In this document: piece by piece, positions 29,646 through 39,802 of the stretch
Layout: each line of letters opens with the position of its first letter
Numbering within the stretch: position 1 is the first letter of the stretch
Notes under the pieces: generated by a model
Seen by the model: only the letters and a program-made list of their open reading frames with translations
Databases searched by the model: none
Told to the model about the DNA's origin: nothing
Program-made: the position numbers and the translations under genes
From: Candidatus Doudnabacteria bacterium
GTDB taxonomy: Bacteria; Patescibacteriota; Doudnabacteria; UBA920; 2-01-FULL-46-14
Direction: 5' to 3'
DNA length: 41,753 nucleotides
NCBI GenBank assembly: GCA_023246055.1
Contig: JAHFJD010000004.1
Coordinates: 1-41,753, forward strand

Positions 29646-29684
29646 CACCCCTCCCTTGCCCTCCCCCTCAAGGGGAGGGAATTA
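29646..29684. repeat. Family A repeat between gap and the cupin gene
   Basis: ACCCCTCCCTTGCCCTCC, then the hairpin CCCTCAAGGGGAGGG. It ends at the gap stop codon (29682-29684) and lies directly before the cupin gene's start. Confidence 0.85.
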
Positions 29685-30698
29685 TGTACTGATTCGATTA
29701 GCTAGATATTCGAGAAGGCTAGTGAGCTGGGTGACATAGCCCCATTCATTGTCATACCAGGCCAGGACGTTTACAAACGAGCCGTCCACGACCTCTGTGG
29801 ACAGCAAATCAATAGTCGCACCGGCAGGGTTGCCCTGATAATCGCGCGACACCAGGGGCAGGTCAGAAACCGCGAGTTGGCCTTTGAGATGAGTCTTACT
29901 GGCTTTGATAAATGCATCGTTAATAGTTTTTGCCATGGTCTTTTTATTCAATTGTGCGGAAAAGGCAAGAACGGACGGATCAAGCACTGGCACACGAAAC
30001 GACATGCCGGAAATTTTATCTTTAAGCTTTGGGAACATCTTGCCAATGGTTTGGGTGACACCTGTGGTTGATGGAATGATCGACTGACTTGCGGCCCTGG
30101 CGCGTCGCAAATCTCTATGGGAGTTGTCCACCAAGCTTTGATCAGATGTAAAGGCATGGACTGTGTTGATGAAACCCCGCTGGATGCCGAAATTTTCTTC
30201 GAGGACTTTCACAACGAGCGAGGAACAGATAGAGGTGCATGAGGCCCCGGATATTATTTTGTGCTTTTTTGGATCAAAAGTTTTGTGATTTACCCCGTAA
30301 ACCAGCGTGGCTTCTAGGTCGTGGCCGGGCGCGCTCACCACCACGTACCTGGCGCCGGCTTTAATATGCTGTGCGGCTTCTGCACGATTCTTATGTTTTC
30401 CGGTAGCGTCCAAGACCAAGTCGGTTTTGTACTTCCGCCAGGGCAAATCAAAGCTCTCGGTTTCTTGGATGAATGGAACGGCCTTGCCTTCAATAACTAA
30501 ATTCTTTCCCTTCACCTTCACTTCTTTGTCCCACAAGCCATAGGTAGAATCATATTTGAGAAGGTGCGCGTAGGTTTCGAGATCGGAACGGCTGTTGCTA
30601 GCCACAATCTCAAAATGCGGATTATTCCAGGCAATCCGGAGAAATATCCGGCCGATTCTCCCCAGTCCATTTATCGCAAGTCTAATTGGTTTTGCCAT
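29682..30698 (-). CDS. gap: Glyceraldehyde-3-phosphate dehydrogenase
   Basis: The 338-residue glycolytic enzyme has the NAD(P) fold GLGRIGRIFLR, the catalytic Cys154 in GASCTSICSS (usual form SCTTN, here Asn is replaced by Ile), His181 in NTVHAFT, and RRARAASQSIIPSTTG. In the loop that chooses the cofactor, the usual N-D-L-T-D reads N-S-R-S-D (residues 35-39): the acidic residue that excludes NADP is Ser and is followed by Arg, which points to NADP use. ATG 30698 follows AAGGA. It lies between pgk and the cupin gene on one strand. Confidence 0.95.
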   Translation of the reverse strand: MAKPIRLAINGLGRIGRIFLRIAWNNPHFEIVASNSRSDLETYAHLLKYDSTYGLWDKEVKVKGKNLVIEGKAVPFIQETESFDLPWRKYKTDLVLDATGKHKNRAEAAQHIKAGARYVVVSAPGHDLEATLVYGVNHKTFDPKKHKIISGASCTSICSSLVVKVLEENFGIQRGFINTVHAFTSDQSLVDNSHRDLRRARAASQSIIPSTTGVTQTIGKMFPKLKDKISGMSFRVPVLDPSVLAFSAQLNKKTMAKTINDAFIKASKTHLKGQLAVSDLPLVSRDYQGNPAGATIDLLSTEVVDGSFVNVLAWYDNEWGYVTQLTSLLEYLANRIST

Positions 30699-30730: not shown

Positions 30731-30806
30731 TTTATCCCGTTCAAAATCACGCCCGCGCTTACGCGCCCGAAGGGCCTGGGGGCGGGACTATTTTGAACGG
30801 GATAAA
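30731..30806. repeat. Inverted-repeat element at the pgk 3' end
   Basis: Seventeen-base ends TTTATCCCGTTCAAAAT and ATTTTGAACGGGATAAA match perfectly, with an inner GC-rich hairpin (CGCCCGCGC...). The last five pgk codons and its stop (LSRSK, TAG) lie inside the right arm. Confidence 0.9.
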
Positions 30807-32020
30807 TATTTCATCACCGGAAATTCTTTGCCCGCCAAGAACTCTAACGAAGCTCCCCCACCGGTCGAAACATGCGTAAACTTTCCTTGCCAGCCATAGC
30901 GCTCCACAATGCTTTCCGTATCGCCTCCCCCGATCACTGTTATGGCGGAGCTTCCGATCATGGCTTCGGCGATTTTTTTCGTGCCGATCGCAAACCGCTC
31001 TTCTTCAAACACTCCCATCGGCCCGTTGGCAAAAATCATTTTGGCGGTTTTTAAAATGTCTGAATAAAGGTCGATCGTCCGTGGACCGATGTCAAAATAA
31101 GACCAATTTTTTTCAAGGTGTTCGCCGGTGTCGAGATTTACCACTCTAATGTCCGAACTTTCGCCACTCTCCGCAGAAAGCATATCAATAGGCAGCACTA
31201 TTTTATCGCCTGCTTCTTGGAGCAGTCTCCTGCAAATTTCCAGATAATCCTGCTTCTCCCCCCGGGAGGCATCTACAAATACGTCCTCTACCTTTGATTT
31301 TTCAACAGCCATCCCTTTAGCCTTAAAGAAAGTGTTCGCGAGAGCTCCGCCGATTAGAATCCTGTCAGCCTTATGAATTAGGTTCTGCAGCACACCGACG
31401 CGATCAGAAATCTTGGCCCCGCCCTGCACCGCCACAAACGGATGTTTTGGTGCTTCCAATAATTCAGAAAGGATTCGGATTTCCTTTTCAAACAAAAACC
31501 CGCAACAGGATGGTAAAATTTCTAAAATTCCAGTGGTAGACGCATGAATCCGCATGGCTTGCGCAAAACCCTCATAAACAATAAATTCAAAACCTTTACA
31601 TAATTGTTTTGCAAATTCCGGGTCGGCGGCTTCTTCCTCGGGATGAAAACGGACATTCTCGAGCATAGTCAATTCCCCAGGCTTCATAGCTTTGATCTGC
31701 TTTTCCACCTCTGAACCGACACATTCTGAAAGTGCCTTGACCGGACGGCCAAGCAGTTTGGATAATCTGTCTGCGATCGGTTTTGTGCGCATCCCCTCGA
31801 CAACTTTTCCACCCGGTCTGCGCACATATGTCAAAAAACCTATGGAACAGCCTTGCTGCAAAAGATATTCAATAGTTGGCAGAGTCGCGCGAATCCGCGT
31901 GTCATCCGGGACTATCCAACTGCCATTTTTCTCAGTCAAAGTAATGTCATAAGGCGCGCGCAGCAGAATTTTTTTACCTTGCACATCTGCCTCCTTCAGG
32001 GTTTTTAGATTATATTTCAC
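30788..32020 (-). CDS. pgk: Phosphoglycerate kinase, divergent
   Basis: The 410-residue enzyme makes ATP from 1,3-bisphosphoglycerate. Conserved blocks: DDTRIRATLPTIEYLL, GGAKISDRVGVLQNL, FANGPMGVFE and GGGDTESIVERYG. In the N-terminal substrate domain some usual residues differ: RVDFNVP reads RAPYDIT, and DAFGTAHRAHAS reads EGFAQAMRIHAS. The start is GTG 32020, inside the right end of an inverted-repeat element, and the stop is inside another (30731-30806). It sits directly upstream of gap on the minus strand. Confidence 0.93.
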   Translation of the reverse strand: MKYNLKTLKEADVQGKKILLRAPYDITLTEKNGSWIVPDDTRIRATLPTIEYLLQQGCSIGFLTYVRRPGGKVVEGMRTKPIADRLSKLLGRPVKALSECVGSEVEKQIKAMKPGELTMLENVRFHPEEEAADPEFAKQLCKGFEFIVYEGFAQAMRIHASTTGILEILPSCCGFLFEKEIRILSELLEAPKHPFVAVQGGAKISDRVGVLQNLIHKADRILIGGALANTFFKAKGMAVEKSKVEDVFVDASRGEKQDYLEICRRLLQEAGDKIVLPIDMLSAESGESSDIRVVNLDTGEHLEKNWSYFDIGPRTIDLYSDILKTAKMIFANGPMGVFEEERFAIGTKKIAEAMIGSSAITVIGGGDTESIVERYGWQGKFTHVSTGGGASLEFLAGKEFPVMKYLSRSK

Positions 32021-32097
32021 CCCGTTAGAAATCCTTGCGCTTAATTATCAAAGCTGCAAAAGTTTTTTCCATTCCATTAATTTGATTTCTAACGGGG
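32020..32097. mobile_element. MITE-like element, CCCCGTTAGAAATC ends
   Basis: Perfect 14-base terminal inverted repeats (32020-32033 and 32084-32097), 78 bp in total, no coding capacity. A second copy of 80 bp is at 39723-39802 with the same ends but a different interior. It fills the gap between the nucleotidyltransferase fusion and pgk and supplies the pgk GTG start. Confidence 0.8.
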
Positions 32098-32098
32098 C

Positions 32099-32932
32099 TC
32101 ATACTTTAAATTCCTTCATAACCTCTGCATAAATCTGTGGAGTAGAAACGTCATGCCACTCGCCCTCAAACGGATAACCGTATAGTTTGCCCTCACTAGC
32201 CAACCTGGGAAATAGATCTTGCTCAAGCCGCAAGGATTTGGAACCAATATATTTAAACACCCCCGGATCTAGAACGTAAATTCCTGCATTGATAAGGTGC
32301 GAACGAGTTTTGTTTTTCGGTTTTTCCACGAAATCTTTGATGCGATTACCTTCAATCGCGGCCACGCCCCACATGGATGGGTGCTCGACAGAAGCGAGCG
32401 CCATGGTGGCGATGCCGCGGTGAGAATTATGAAAATCCAGGAGGTCAAGAAAATTAATTTTTGTCAGAACATCCCCGTAGACAACCAAAAAAGGTTCTTG
32501 AGATAAATATTCTTTGGCTTGCAAGAGCGGCTGGGCTGTGCCGTTTCGACTCTCGGCTTGCTCAATATATTTGATACGAACCCCCAGTCTCGCGCCGTCG
32601 CCAAAATAATCTTTGATTTTTTTGCCAAGGTGCGCGACGGAGACATAAATATCAGTGAGGCTCTGTTCTTTAAGCGCGAGGAGCGTATGCTCTAAAAGCG
32701 GGCGGCCGTTTATCGGAAGGAGGGATTTGGGAAGCTCGTTCGTTAACGGACGAAATTTCACACCTTCTCCGCCGGCCAAAATCAAAACCTTTGTCGATTG
32801 CGGTACGAGGCAGCTCGACAGCAAATACTCGATCGCGTGCGAGCGGTTGCGGATTTTTGATCCGTCTATAGCAGCATCAACACGCTTCAGGATGTCTTCA
32901 TCAAGGGTTATGGTCAGGCGGGTTTTTGGCAT
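32099..32932 (-). CDS. Ribbon-helix-helix/NDP-sugar nucleotidyltransferase fusion
   Basis: Residues 1-45 (from ATG 32932) form a ribbon-helix-helix DNA-binding domain: RLTITLDEDILKRVDAAIDG and NRSHAIEYLLSSCL. The rest (about 230 residues) is a nucleotidyltransferase: LILAGGEGVKFRPLTNELPKSLLPI (canonical GGxGTRLxPLT..xPK), LVVYGDVL, and VEKPKNK. It should make an NDP-sugar from a sugar-1-phosphate, probably a mannose- or glucose-type substrate. The Thr-Arg of the first motif is replaced by Val-Lys. A second ATG (32944) lies in the operator-like repeats and would add four residues. The fusion suggests the enzyme regulates its own gene or sugar genes. Confidence 0.85.
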   Translation of the reverse strand: MPKTRLTITLDEDILKRVDAAIDGSKIRNRSHAIEYLLSSCLVPQSTKVLILAGGEGVKFRPLTNELPKSLLPINGRPLLEHTLLALKEQSLTDIYVSVAHLGKKIKDYFGDGARLGVRIKYIEQAESRNGTAQPLLQAKEYLSQEPFLVVYGDVLTKINFLDLLDFHNSHRGIATMALASVEHPSMWGVAAIEGNRIKDFVEKPKNKTRSHLINAGIYVLDPGVFKYIGSKSLRLEQDLFPRLASEGKLYGYPFEGEWHDVSTPQIYAEVMKEFKV

Positions 32933-32940
32933 ATTAACAT

Positions 32941-32956
32941 TCATACGGTATCATAT
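32941..32956. promoter_or_regulatory. TCATAC direct repeats (10-bp period) at the fusion gene start
   Basis: TCATAC (32941) and TCATAT (32951) start exactly 10 bp apart, just upstream of ATG 32932. The same repeat with the same period is at 33301-33326. Ribbon-helix-helix dimers often bind tandem sites with one helical turn of spacing. Confidence 0.55.
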
Positions 32957-32982
32957 TTACTCACATTGGGGCAACTCACAAT

Positions 32983-33014
32983 ATAAAAAGAAAGGCCACT
33001 TGGAGGGAGTGGCC
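32983..33014 (-). terminator. Rho-independent terminator of the small gene at 33078
   Basis: On the minus strand GGCCACT-CCCTCCA-AGTGGCC (32994-33014), followed by a T-rich run (complement of 32983-32993). Confidence 0.85.
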
Positions 33015-33077
33015 GTGGTGATGCGAAGATTGGGGGTTTGGTGCGAGTTGTGGTCCATCAGGGGTGTTGGGGGGTTA

Positions 33078-33278
33078 TTAGGTATGATTGCAGAATTCGG
33101 TAAGATGGAGGGTGGCTTCGCGCCAGTTAAAGAGGGTGTCGGTGAGGTGTTCGGGAAATTGCTTTATGTAAGCGTGTGGTAGTTGGGGTAGATGTTGTAT
33201 TTGTGGGTGGTGTGTTTGGGGTTCAGTAAAAACAATTTCTCGGTGGTTTGGGACACCGTCCTCAATTTCTTTTCGCAT
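33078..33278 (-). CDS. 66-residue protein of unknown function
   Basis: ATG 33278 follows the strong ribosome site AGGAGGA. The protein begins MRKEIEDGVPNHREIVFTEP and is rich in His, Pro and Gln in its centre (QTHHPQIQHLPQLPHAY), with a more ordinary end (NWREATLHLTEFCNHT). It has its own terminator (32983-33014) and 10-bp TCATAC repeats upstream, so it is a complete transcription unit. No family is recognised. Sharing operator-like repeats with the fusion gene next door suggests joint regulation. Confidence 0.6.
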   Translation of the reverse strand: MRKEIEDGVPNHREIVFTEPQTHHPQIQHLPQLPHAYIKQFPEHLTDTLFNWREATLHLTEFCNHT

Positions 33279-33300
33279 TTTTATGATTCCTCCTGCTAGT

Positions 33301-33326
33301 TCATACATTATCATACCCTATCATAC
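33301..33326. promoter_or_regulatory. Three TCATAC direct repeats with 10-bp period
   Basis: TCATAC begins at 33301, 33311 and 33321. On the minus strand this reads GTATGA-TAGG-GTATGA-TAAT-GTATGA; TATGAT could also be a -10 box for the 33078-33278 gene. The same period is at 32941-32956. Confidence 0.65.
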
Positions 33327-33407
33327 TCTGTCTAGGGCAGTTATCCACACTTCTCCGATAAAGCTTCGAAGTGCTTGGCACCGCAAACAAAAACCCCCTT
33401 TTCTAAG

Positions 33408-33521
33408 GGGGCAACGACCTACTTTCCCAACCGCATCGCGCGGCAGTATCATCGGCGCTGACGTCTTTCACGGCCGGGTTCGGGATGAGACCGGGTGGTT
33501 CAACGTCGCAAATGTCACCCT
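33408..33521 (-). rRNA. rrf: 5S rRNA
   Basis: The closing helix GGGUGAC (33520-33514) pairs with GUUGCCC (33415-33409). Between them are the 5S landmarks: CGACGTTGAACCACCCGG, TCATCCCGAACCCGGCCGTG (loop B/C region), AGCGCCGATGATACTG and GGGAAAGTAGGTCGTTGCC. Flanking repeats CCCCCTTTTCTA/TAGAAAAGGGGG (33394-33405, 33521-33532) form an outer processing stem. About 114 nt; ends estimated. Confidence 0.93.
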
Positions 33522-33799
33522 AGAAAAGGGGGTTTTGACTTTGGAGGGGCAAACCCAGAAGGGTTTTTCCCCTTCCAACGGCCTCCCCTTTCCAATGTCA
33601 TCCAGGACACTAGCCAAGCTAGATGTCCTGGATTTAATTTGTGAAATGAGTAATTTTCCTGCCGAAGAGGCAGGATGGCTAACAATCATGAACTGCTAGT
33701 CAAACTAGTGGAAGTTGGAAGTGGGAGATGGGAAGTGGGAAAGAAGATTCCAGAGCTTCTCTATCCAACCTCTAACCTCTCACTTCCAACCTCCAACAC
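33522..33799 (-). other. 23S-5S spacer
   Basis: No gene. It contains a hairpin TCCAGGACA...TGTCCTGGA (near 33600-33632), TCCTGCC/GGCAGGA (33657-33676), one arm of the 23S processing stem (33688-33703), and GTTGGAAGTGGGAG...CTCTCACTTCCAAC paired sequences before the 23S end. No tRNA is present. Confidence 0.7.
33688..33703. other. 23S processing stem, 3' arm
   Basis: ATGAACTGCTAGTCAA here is the exact complement of TTGACTAGCAGTTCAT at 39606-39621. The two flank the whole 23S gene, as expected for a long-range RNase III-type processing stem. Confidence 0.75.
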
Positions 33800-34101: not shown

Positions 34102-34477
34102 CAATCATGTTACTTCGTAACAAAATTTCTAATTACTAATTTCTAAATAAATCCCAATGATTTAATTTCAAAATTAGAAACATTATTACGTGGCATGGAC
34201 ATTTCTGCCATGCTCTCTATGTCGCCATAGAGTTCAGACTATATCTTTACTCTCCTGTCATCCTCGGGCTTGACCCGGGGATCCAGAACTGGATTCCCGC
34301 CTTCGCGGGAATGACATCGAAAGATGTTGAGCGTGTAGTCGTTGAGGGTTCCTTAAAAAATTAAGATCTTCCCTGCTGATAATCCGCAATCGAAGATTAT
34401 TACGCAATAAATTACGTACTCCAATATACACGGGTTTTCCAGCATATAGCTCAATTTATAGACAGCTTTGGTCACTC
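34102..34477 (-). mobile_element. Group I intron 1 in 23S rRNA (no ORF)
   Basis: Exons join as GAGACAGT|TTGGTCC, close to the I-CreI target region. The exon ends in U and the intron ends in G. P1 is perfect: exon AGACAGU pairs with the internal guide GCUGUCU (34460-34466) with U-G at the cut. Core elements: Q (CAGCAGGGAAG, 34368-34378), R (CAACGACTACACGC, in 34331-34350) and S (AAGATATAGTCT, 34236-34247). A family B element lies between R and S. AT-rich TTTCTAATTACTAATTTCTAA repeats follow S. Confidence 0.93.
34256..34316. repeat. Family B repeat in intron 1 (P8 region)
   Basis: TGTCATCCTCGGGCTTGACC to CGCGGGAATGACA, two hairpins inside TGTCAT/ATGACA ends, placed between the R and S core elements. 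Confidence 0.9.
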
Positions 34478-34570
34478 ACTGTCTCACGACGTTTTGAACC
34501 CAGCTCGCGTACCACTTTAATAGGCGAACAGCCTAACCCTTGGTAGCTTCTTCACCACCAGGATGTGATG

Positions 34571-35437
<867 letters not shown>

Positions 35438-35722: not shown

Positions 35723-35791
35723 CGGGTACGCGCATTTCTGCCGCACTCTGCATGTCGCCATGCAGTTCAGACTATATCACTATCCTCACCT

Positions 35792-35865
35792 TGTCATGCC
35801 CGACCTGATCGGGCATCCAGACACAAAGGACTGGATTCCTCCGCCTTAGGCGGACGGGAATGACA
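35792..35865. repeat. Family B repeat in intron 3 (P8 region)
   Basis: TGTCATGCCCGACCTGATCG to GACGGGAATGACA, between R and S, same orientation as in introns 1 and 4. Confidence 0.9.
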
Positions 35866-35913
35866 GAAAAGGATACTCGGCGTGTAGTCGTTGAGGATTA
35901 TAATTTATGCTTA

Positions 35914-36156
35914 TCAAGATTCAGGTTGTCTATTCTCCAACCAATCTTTAATTGATGTTTTAACACCAACTACTATTCCGTTTTCAGTTATGGCCTCTTC
36001 ACCGGGTCTGAAAGCATAAAATTTACCTTCCGGCGAGATGACCCCCAGTCTGCCTTTTGCAGTAGTCCATTCTCCTTTTTCATTTTGACCAGGTTGAACC
36101 GTTAGTCTTTGTTCCGAGTCTGGACTAACTGAAAACTCTTTCCCTTTATTTGACAT
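35914..36156 (-). CDS. 80-residue protein encoded in 23S intron 3, unknown family
   Basis: ATG 36156 follows AAAGGATAATTT, and this ribosome site overlaps the intron's Q element. The protein reads MSNKGKEFSVSPDSEQRLTV and has a beta-rich middle (GRLGVISPEGKFYAFRPGEE) and a helical end (TSIKDWLENRQPES). It lies where homing endonuclease genes usually sit (between Q and R), but lacks LAGLIDADG, GIY-YIG, HNH or His-Cys motifs. It could be a maturase-like RNA binder, a passenger gene or the remnant of another gene. Confidence 0.6.
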   Translation of the reverse strand: MSNKGKEFSVSPDSEQRLTVQPGQNEKGEWTTAKGRLGVISPEGKFYAFRPGEEAITENGIVVGVKTSIKDWLENRQPES

Positions 36157-36726
36157 AAATTATCCTTTCCTGCTGGTTGTCTGCACCAAGCTGATTTTCA
36201 CTTTGGCACATAAACCATTAATTAGGTTTATTATACCAAAGTACAGTTGGATACTCCAGATGTTCCAGCATATAGCCAAGTTTTTTTCTTCTAATGTTGC
36301 CATTAGAGGGCCCGGTATGACGCTTCCTCGACAAAAAGTCAAGGCGTAACGTATCGCGCCATACTTCCAGGCAACCGCCCCAGTTAAACTACCCACGAGC
36401 CACTGTCCCTGTGATGGTTAATCACGGGTTAGAATCAAAATTCATTCAGGGTGGTATTTCATATTGCGACTCCTCTCGAGCTAGCGCCCGAGACTCAAAG
36501 TCTCCCACCTATACTAAACAGAACAAATCTTGACCCAATGACACGCTATAGTAAAGCTTCATAGGGTCTTTCCGTCTTGCTGCGGGTAAACGGCATCTTT
36601 ACCGATAATGCAAATTCATCGAGCTATTTGTTAAGACAGTCCCCCACTCGTTATGCCATTCGTGCGGGTCGTAACTTACACGACAAGGAATTTCGCTCGG
36701 ACCATTGTTACTCATTCCGTGTAATA

Positions 36727-36817: not shown

Positions 36818-36897
36818 TAAATCCCGGAATTGGTGCGATCGTTTCCGTCGCACTCTCTGTGTCGCCACAGAGCTCGGACTCTATCTTCATCTTTGTC

Positions 36898-36970
36898 TGT
36901 CATCCCAAACTCGATTTGGGATCCACGTCATGAATTCCCTCCGCCAGATGGCGGATTCGCGGGAATGACA
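36898..36970. repeat. Family B repeat in intron 4 (P8 region)
   Basis: TGTCATCCCAAACTCGATTT to CGCGGGAATGACA between R and S. Confidence 0.9.
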
Positions 36971-38446
36971 ATCAAGAGGTGCAGCGTATAGTCTCTACGG
37001 GTTCGAATTACGTAATTAATTACGTAACAAGTCTTCCCTCGGAATTGTCTCATTGATGAGAGTTTTTCCGATATAGCTACATTTTACTATGGCAGCAAAA
37101 CCTTCTTTTCTGAAGTAAATTCCTCTACCATAGGACGATTATAGTTATCGCCGGCGTTCATCAGGGCTTGGCCCACCGGGTTGCCCCAGCGGGTTTAACC
37201 TTCTGACACTGGCCAGGCATCAGCCCGTATACATCAGCTTTTAGCTTTAGCACGGACCTGTGTTTTTGTTAAACAGTCGGGAGGGGGTCATTCGCTGCGA
37301 CCCCGTGTGATAGCGCTTGCGCGACATCACATGGGGCAGGCCATATACCGAAGGTACGGCCGCTTTTTTGCCGAGTTCCTGAACAAATATTGTCTCGTTC
37401 GCCTGAGGATACTCTCCTCATCCACCGGTGTCGGTTTGCGGTACGGTTGGCGCGAAATGTAAGGTTCGAACCTTTTCTTGGCACCTTGGGTCACACAAAT
37501 TTCCCTTGCGGGATTTCTCCAAATTTTCTAGCTTGTCCCGATAAATCGGAACGGCCTTCCGGATTTGCCTGAAAGACCATAGCTCTACGAATTCAGAAAC
37601 CTAAATAGTCAGATTAGGCTTGCACTACCATGATGCGTCAATCCGAAACAAATTTCGCGTCAGCGACGGAATATCAACCGTCTCATCCATCGCACGGCAC
37701 CATTGGGCACCGCACTTAGGGCCGGCTAACCCTGGGCTGATAAGCATTGCCCAGGAAACCTTGGATATTCGGCGTGCAGGATTCTCACCTGCATAATAAT
37801 TACTTATCCCAACATTCTCTCTTGTGAGCGCTCCACCGGCTCTCGCGAGTCCGACTTCGCAGCTGCTCACAATGCTCCTCTACCCCCTGCGCCTTGCGGC
37901 GCAGAGTCGTGTTTTCGGTACAAAGCTTAGCCCCTATACATTGTCGGCGCCCCTGTCCCTCTCCGCCTTCCGTAAAGTTGGCGGAGATTCGAGTAGTGAG
38001 TTGTTACACACTCTTTAAAGGGTGGCTACCTCTAAGCCAACCTCCTACCTGTCTTGGGACAGAAACATCCTTTACACTATAGCTTTGATTTGGGGACCTT
38101 AAACGACGATCTGGGCTCTTTCCCTTTGGACACATGAAGCTTAGACCTCACGGTCTGACTCCTCCGCATACGTTCCTGGTATTCAGAGTTTGATTCGAAC
38201 GAACGACTTGCGCCGCTCGATCCGATTCAGTGCTTTACCCCCAGAAACAAAACGGAAGGCTAGCCCTAAAGCTATTTCGAGGAGAACCAGCTATCACCCA
38301 GTTCGATTGGAATTTCTCCCCTACTCACAGCTCATCCCCTATTTTTGCAACAATAGTGGGTTCGGACCTCCCCCAAGTTTTACCTTGAGTTCATCCTGGC
38401 CATGAGTAGCTCACCGGGTTTCGGGTCTAACGCATACCACCAACCA

Positions 38447-39722: not shown

Positions 39723-39802
39723 CCCCGTTAGAAATCCCGTTTGAGACGAGACGACTAATCGGGGTAAATCCCGTAAAAAATCAGCAAAGATTTCTAACGG
39801 GG
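39723..39802. mobile_element. MITE-like element, CCCCGTTAGAAATC ends, second copy
   Basis: Perfect 14-base terminal inverted repeats (39723-39736 and 39789-39802), 80 bp. Same ends as 32020-32097, unrelated interior. Confidence 0.8.

Follow-up and report, generated by a model that had tools for sequence, protein, structure and literature searches.

The closest described relatives of the protein considered here are two regulators and a family of enzymes. NikR, the nickel-responsive ribbon-helix-helix (RHH) repressor of E. coli, recognizes the half-site GTATGA with beta strands that enter the major groove (PMC7055735, PMC4486848), and PutA, the trifunctional proline utilization A protein, carries an N-terminal RHH domain on a metabolic enzyme and acts as an autogenous repressor (PMC5293562). 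Sugar-1-phosphate nucleotidyltransferases have a GXGXR nucleotide-binding signature and a Glu that binds the base (PMC6981941). Here we analysed a 41,753-nt stretch of DNA from a Candidatus Doudnabacteria genome (contig JAHFJD010000004.1; "the window"), which encodes a fusion of an RHH domain with a nucleotidyltransferase fold, preceded by tandem GTATGA boxes. It is probable, in our judgement, that this protein is a one-component regulator whose RHH domain binds GTATGATA boxes and represses the fusion operon and whose C-terminal domain is the sensor, with catalysis probably lost or changed in the window's branch. Comparative data support the existence of the fusion and of conserved operators that go with it, and a nucleotide signature that has decayed while metal and phosphate residues are kept; RHH binding to the boxes, repression, the ligand and the loss of catalysis are what we infer from it.

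The fusion shares with NikR the R-x-T-x-T strand of the RHH domain and the GTATGA half-site (PMC7055735, PMC4486848), but no C-terminal nickel-binding domain was detected in it (Pfam gives only an NTP_transferase-type match there), and in place of the NikR operator GTATGA-N16-TCATAC we see 10-bp direct boxes or inverted boxes with centres 8 bp apart. As in PutA, an N-terminal RHH domain precedes a metabolic enzyme domain, here with predicted operators at the fusion's own promoter; unlike PutA, the fusion has no PRODH or P5CDH domain (Pfam), its enzyme domain is unrelated, the operator-bearing branch has a degenerate nucleotide signature, and the predicted regulon is one of sugar-phosphate and central carbon metabolism. 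Since the NikR metal domain, the N16 spacing and the PutA enzyme domains were all tested for and absent, the fusion is a member of neither family; it is, as far as its sequence tells, a new variant within the RHH-enzyme regulators, predicted to work like PutA and to read DNA like NikR. Our literature search turned up neither a description of an RHH-nucleotidyltransferase fusion nor an account of a Patescibacteria regulator of central carbon metabolism (subscription journals lay outside its coverage).

An RHH-nucleotidyltransferase fusion with tandem boxes at its start

A first-pass annotation of this DNA had proposed that the gene joins a DNA-binding domain to an NDP-sugar enzyme, and that TCATAC repeats with an exact 10-bp period lie at its start and again further upstream. 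Both features are real. Residues 9–41 of the fusion match RHH_1 with 21.3 bits (curated Pfam PF01402 cut-off, 20.5) and residues 52–278 match NTP_transferase (PF00483) with 154.7 bits, while an AlphaFold2 model of the protein, called confident (pLDDT 86.5, pTM 0.82), matched GMPP, MurU and RmlA in a Foldseek search. On the plus strand, TCATAC begins at 33301, 33311 and 33321, with a period of exactly 10 bp (operator 1 in Table 1); at operator 2, TCATAC (32941–32946) and TCATAT (32951–32956) are followed by a weaker TCACAT from 32961. One box sits over the listed start codon of the fusion, and homologues begin at a later ATG (Table 1). The arrangement TCATACNNNNTCATAC is unique to this locus within the 1.16-Mb genome (reversed control, 0 occurrences); the single box GTATGATA shows no genome-wide enrichment (19 sites versus 16 for the control), so that the unusual feature is the tandem arrangement.

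When the RHH domain was compared with all PDB sequences, the only match was E. coli NikR (E=0.003), the alignment pairing RLTITLDEDIL with RVTITLDDDLL. The box motif had been found from the DNA alone before this match was computed, and the two lines thus agree independently. Conservation of the boxes fits a dimer that would contact repeated sites with its beta strands. Each box approximates the near-palindrome GTATgATAc, as would be expected for one RHH dimer per box, and we infer that the fusion is an autoregulator bound as tandem RHH dimers.

Putative operators accompany the fusion across Patescibacteria

A survey of 380 genomes of the phylum Patescibacteria found the fusion in 44 (RHH checked), and 49 fusions were read for upstream boxes; among the first 98 genomes examined, 26 had a fusion, one of them shortened by a contig end. 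Upstream of the fusions, the boxes form direct repeats, GTATGATA-N2-(G/A)TATGATA, or inverted repeats, GTATGATA-N-TATCATAC. Two-box sites scoring at least 14/16 were present within 200 bp upstream of the start in 21 of the 49 fusions, with about 4 such sites left unexplained in 692 kb of surrounding sequence, and 25 of the 49 scored above dinucleotide shuffles at p<0.01 (about 0.5 expected). Same-strand boxes were 10 bp apart in 20 of 32 pairs (the rest 8, 18, 20, 21 or 28), and inverted boxes had centres 8 bp apart. The exact direct pattern occurs in 19 of the 380 genomes, 17 of them with the fusion, and exact direct or inverted operators in 23 of the 44 fusion genomes versus 5 of the 336 others (Fisher 3e-20, a value that is too small, as the genomes are related and not independent). 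In a quick tree, the window protein falls within a supported clade whose fusions bear operators, and all three fusion-holding genomes of the window's family carry both operators, 200–480 bp apart. The putative assignment of the repeats as operators for the fused RHH domain thus survives the refuting condition that had been set for it, absence of the repeats upstream of homologous fusions: boxes precede most of the fusions that are near relatives of the window's, and throughout the phylum they go with the fusion.

Two other explanations of the boxes seem very unlikely to us. They could be ordinary promoter (-10) elements of AT-rich genomes and not operators, given that TATGAT resembles a -10 hexamer and that promoter-like matches overlap the boxes; against this stand the strict 10-bp period, the conserved G at two positions, the lack of single-box enrichment, and the practical restriction of tandem sites to fusion genomes and a few genes. 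Alternatively, and with just as little probability, the boxes could serve another RHH or NikR-type regulator that stands alone: NikR has GTATGA as its half-site (PMC7055735), and the window's genome has three RHH_1 matches besides the fusion. However, operators and fusion occur together, with the operators at the fusion's promoter, and the fusion is the only RHH_1 detected in nine operator-bearing genomes (G002, G004, G008, G012, G020, G025, G027, G035 and G321), which argues against another RHH regulator.

Box-like sites were also seen in other settings. G054 (L079, L081) has two exact tandem operators away from its fusion, one before an unassigned 136-aa open reading frame (ORF) and the other downstream of an FtsZ-like gene, and none upstream of the fusion itself. 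In a fusion clade with the strand KLTVTI (L195, L193, L192, L197), the fusions of three genomes from one family are preceded by CGTAT boxes with 10-7-10 spacing and that of G344 by a 10-bp pair; the operator may have changed here along with the beta strand. The changed box (CGTATA repeats) is visible in at least G191, G352 and G413 (one family) and G344, and with so few independent cases covariation is not claimed; exact inverted sites elsewhere in KLTVTI genomes fall mostly inside coding frames and are probably due to chance.

The nucleotide signature has decayed in operator-bearing fusions

The C-terminal domain has the fold and the metal and phosphate residues of sugar-1-phosphate nucleotidyltransferases (GMPP, MurU, RmlA, HddC). 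Unlike these enzymes, the fusion has an RHH domain and an altered GxGTR, and unlike GMPP and GlmU it ends at the catalytic-fold domain, without their C-terminal extension. In an alignment with solved relatives, the canonical GxGTRLRP reads GEGVKFRP in the window protein, and the GXGXR signature is thus missing (GEGVK). Two Asp residues serve in metal binding in this family of enzymes. Among 48 complete fusions, 25 of them operator-bearing, these two Asp and the two phosphate Lys are kept in 47–48 of 48, and the whole set Lys/Asp/Lys/Asp in 25/25 operator-bearing proteins. The signature Thr and Arg are kept in only 9 of the 48, and in one of the 25 with operators, where the base-binding Glu has become Gln in 21. 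Eight GTR-intact fusions have no operator, and six of these eight belong to the KLTVTI clade.

Decay of GxGTR while the metal Asp and phosphate Lys persist suggests that the C-terminal domain is ligand-sensing rather than catalytic in the window's branch, a pattern that we take to reflect selection on binding and not on turnover. The earlier suggestion that the enzyme senses its own substrate is upheld only in part, as a sensor domain whose catalysis is lost or changed fits the loss of GxGTR better than an ordinary enzyme does. A PutA-like bifunctional protein, that is, a sugar nucleotidyltransferase with full activity that doubles as repressor of its own gene and has substrate or product as signal, is the less likely alternative, although it is one we take seriously. 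It has a precedent in PutA (PMC5293562), and it would account for the near-universal metal Asp and phosphate Lys and for the intact GTRLRP of the distant KLTVTI clade, in several genomes of which the fusion adjoins a GHMP kinase-like gene, so named from its sequence only. It is at odds with a GxGTR that is changed or destroyed in 24 of the 25 operator-bearing fusions and with the Gln found in place of the base-binding Glu (motif roles: PMC6981941). The G093 fusion (L116), in the order PGK-fusion-GlpX, has lost the whole nucleotide loop, the PK lysine included.

Candidate regulon and proposed mechanism

The genes downstream of the fusion encode phosphoglycerate kinase (PGK) and GAPDH in the window's family, GAPDH in G008, G027, G031, G037 and G044, the fructose bisphosphatase GlpX in G085, G066, G102 and G093, and elsewhere a PfkB-like kinase or a transketolase-like protein; several of these names come from sequence reading only. 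Operators of their own precede class I/II aminotransferase genes in G008, G037, G044 and G031 (in two cases at a site not linked to the fusion), nagB in G196, an alpha-amylase-like gene in G165 and, in G216, a phosphohexomutase-like gene of the kind that stands ahead of the fusion in G069. Sugar-phosphate and central carbon metabolism appears to be the common theme of the regulon. A genome-wide search with GTATGATANNGTATGATA (at most 3 mismatches) gave no convincing second target in the window's genome; of the extra sites, one in a coding frame and a 2-mismatch site before an AAA/ClpB-like gene were discarded.

In the mechanism that we propose, RHH dimers of the fusion would occupy neighbouring GTATGATA boxes along one side of the helix, arranged as direct repeats every 10 bp or as inverted pairs whose centres are 8 bp apart. 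Since the boxes cover the fusion start and promoter-like -10 sequences, binding would most likely repress the operon of the fusion (fusion-PGK-GAPDH in the window) and, in relatives, also a small number of further genes of sugar metabolism. The nucleotidyltransferase-fold domain would most likely bind a sugar phosphate or nucleotide sugar and thereby alter DNA binding, and in the window's family the paired operators could also act by looping.

Several observations weigh against such a regulator. The RHH match to NikR is weak; about half of the fusions, chiefly in distant clades, have no operator within 200 bp, and those of G054, G086, G221 and G093 share the RLTITL strand yet have none there either; away from the fusion locus there are few targets, which vary with lineage; and, with both catalytic-type Asp kept almost everywhere, the domain may have activity with altered specificity. 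We see about an even chance for a wider interpretation, in which a nucleotidyltransferase has become a metabolite-sensing pseudoenzyme joined to a NikR-like RHH domain, a lineage-spanning Patescibacteria regulator of glycolysis/gluconeogenesis and sugar-phosphate genes, the transition being recorded by the sister clade with an intact signature. In a phylum that is largely uncultured, a conserved regulator with a readable operator would offer a regulon open to direct tests, and a family that runs from GTR-bearing to signature-lost proteins would allow the change from enzyme to sensor to be followed.

Layout of the locus

On the minus strand, the order is rRNA genes (5S last), a terminator-like hairpin, operator 1, a 66-aa ORF, a hairpin, operator 2, the fusion, PGK and the GAPDH-like gene (Table 1); the product of the latter we take, from sequence reading and without a Pfam scan, to belong to the GAPDH family.

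Table 1. Coordinates of the fusion gene, the putative operators and adjoining features in the window
Feature	Position	Strand	Support
Fusion gene, RHH-NTP_transferase	32099..32944	-	Listed start ATG 32944; relatives' conserved start ATG 32932
RHH_1 domain, NikR-like, beta strand RLTITL	32822..32920	-	PF01402 above cut-off; E. coli NikR the only PDB sequence match
NTP_transferase domain (sugar nucleotidyltransferase fold)	32111..32791	-	PF00483; AlphaFold2 model; Foldseek
Position of nucleotide-binding signature GxGTR, here GEGVK	32756..32770	-	Alignment with solved relatives; family table
Putative operator 2, over the start of the fusion: boxes GTATGAAT, ATATGATA and a weak third, 10-bp period	32939..32966	-	Kept in G002, G003
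Putative operator 1: three GTATGA boxes, 10-bp period	33299..33326	-	Counterparts in G003, G002
Promoter-like TAGACA-16-GATAAT overlapping operator 1	33307..33334	-	Consensus match only
66-aa leader ORF behind AGGAGG, not conserved	33078..33278	-	
Hairpin resembling an intrinsic terminator, from leader ORF to operator 2	32994..33014	-	Similar hairpins visible in G002, G003
PGK gene, downstream, same direction	30788..32020	-	PF00162; same order in G002, G003
GAPDH-like gene, next after PGK	29682..30698	-	ORF; order shared with G002, G003
5S rRNA gene upstream of operator 1	33406..33522	-	

The small gene at 33078, which the first-pass annotation had described as lying behind the second set of repeats, has its most likely start at 33278, preceded by AGGAGG. 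It is not a conserved target: the 66-aa ORF has no homologue among 60 related genomes and was rejected on that ground. In the two closest relatives, G003 and G002, the second operator is kept behind the 5S rRNA gene, and the sequence from operator to operator is unrelated, which indicates that the operator pair is conserved and the small gene is not. It is accordingly doubtful that operator 1 controls a specific small protein with a function of its own, even though a good ribosome-binding site and the ORF lie directly 3' of operator 1 and a terminator-like hairpin closes the ORF.

The window also contains two elements of 78–80 bp that resemble miniature inverted-repeat transposable elements (32020–32097 and 39723–39802), with identical 13-bp ends (CCCCGTTAGAAAT) in inverted orientation and differing interiors. 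The first exactly fills the gap between fusion and PGK, where relatives have only 2–4 bp. Within or beside the 23S rRNA gene are three Rfam matches to group I introns (minus strand; 34215–34531, 35748–36329 and 36855–37142), and a 194-aa ORF at 34698–35282 is homing endonuclease-like to judge by its sequence.
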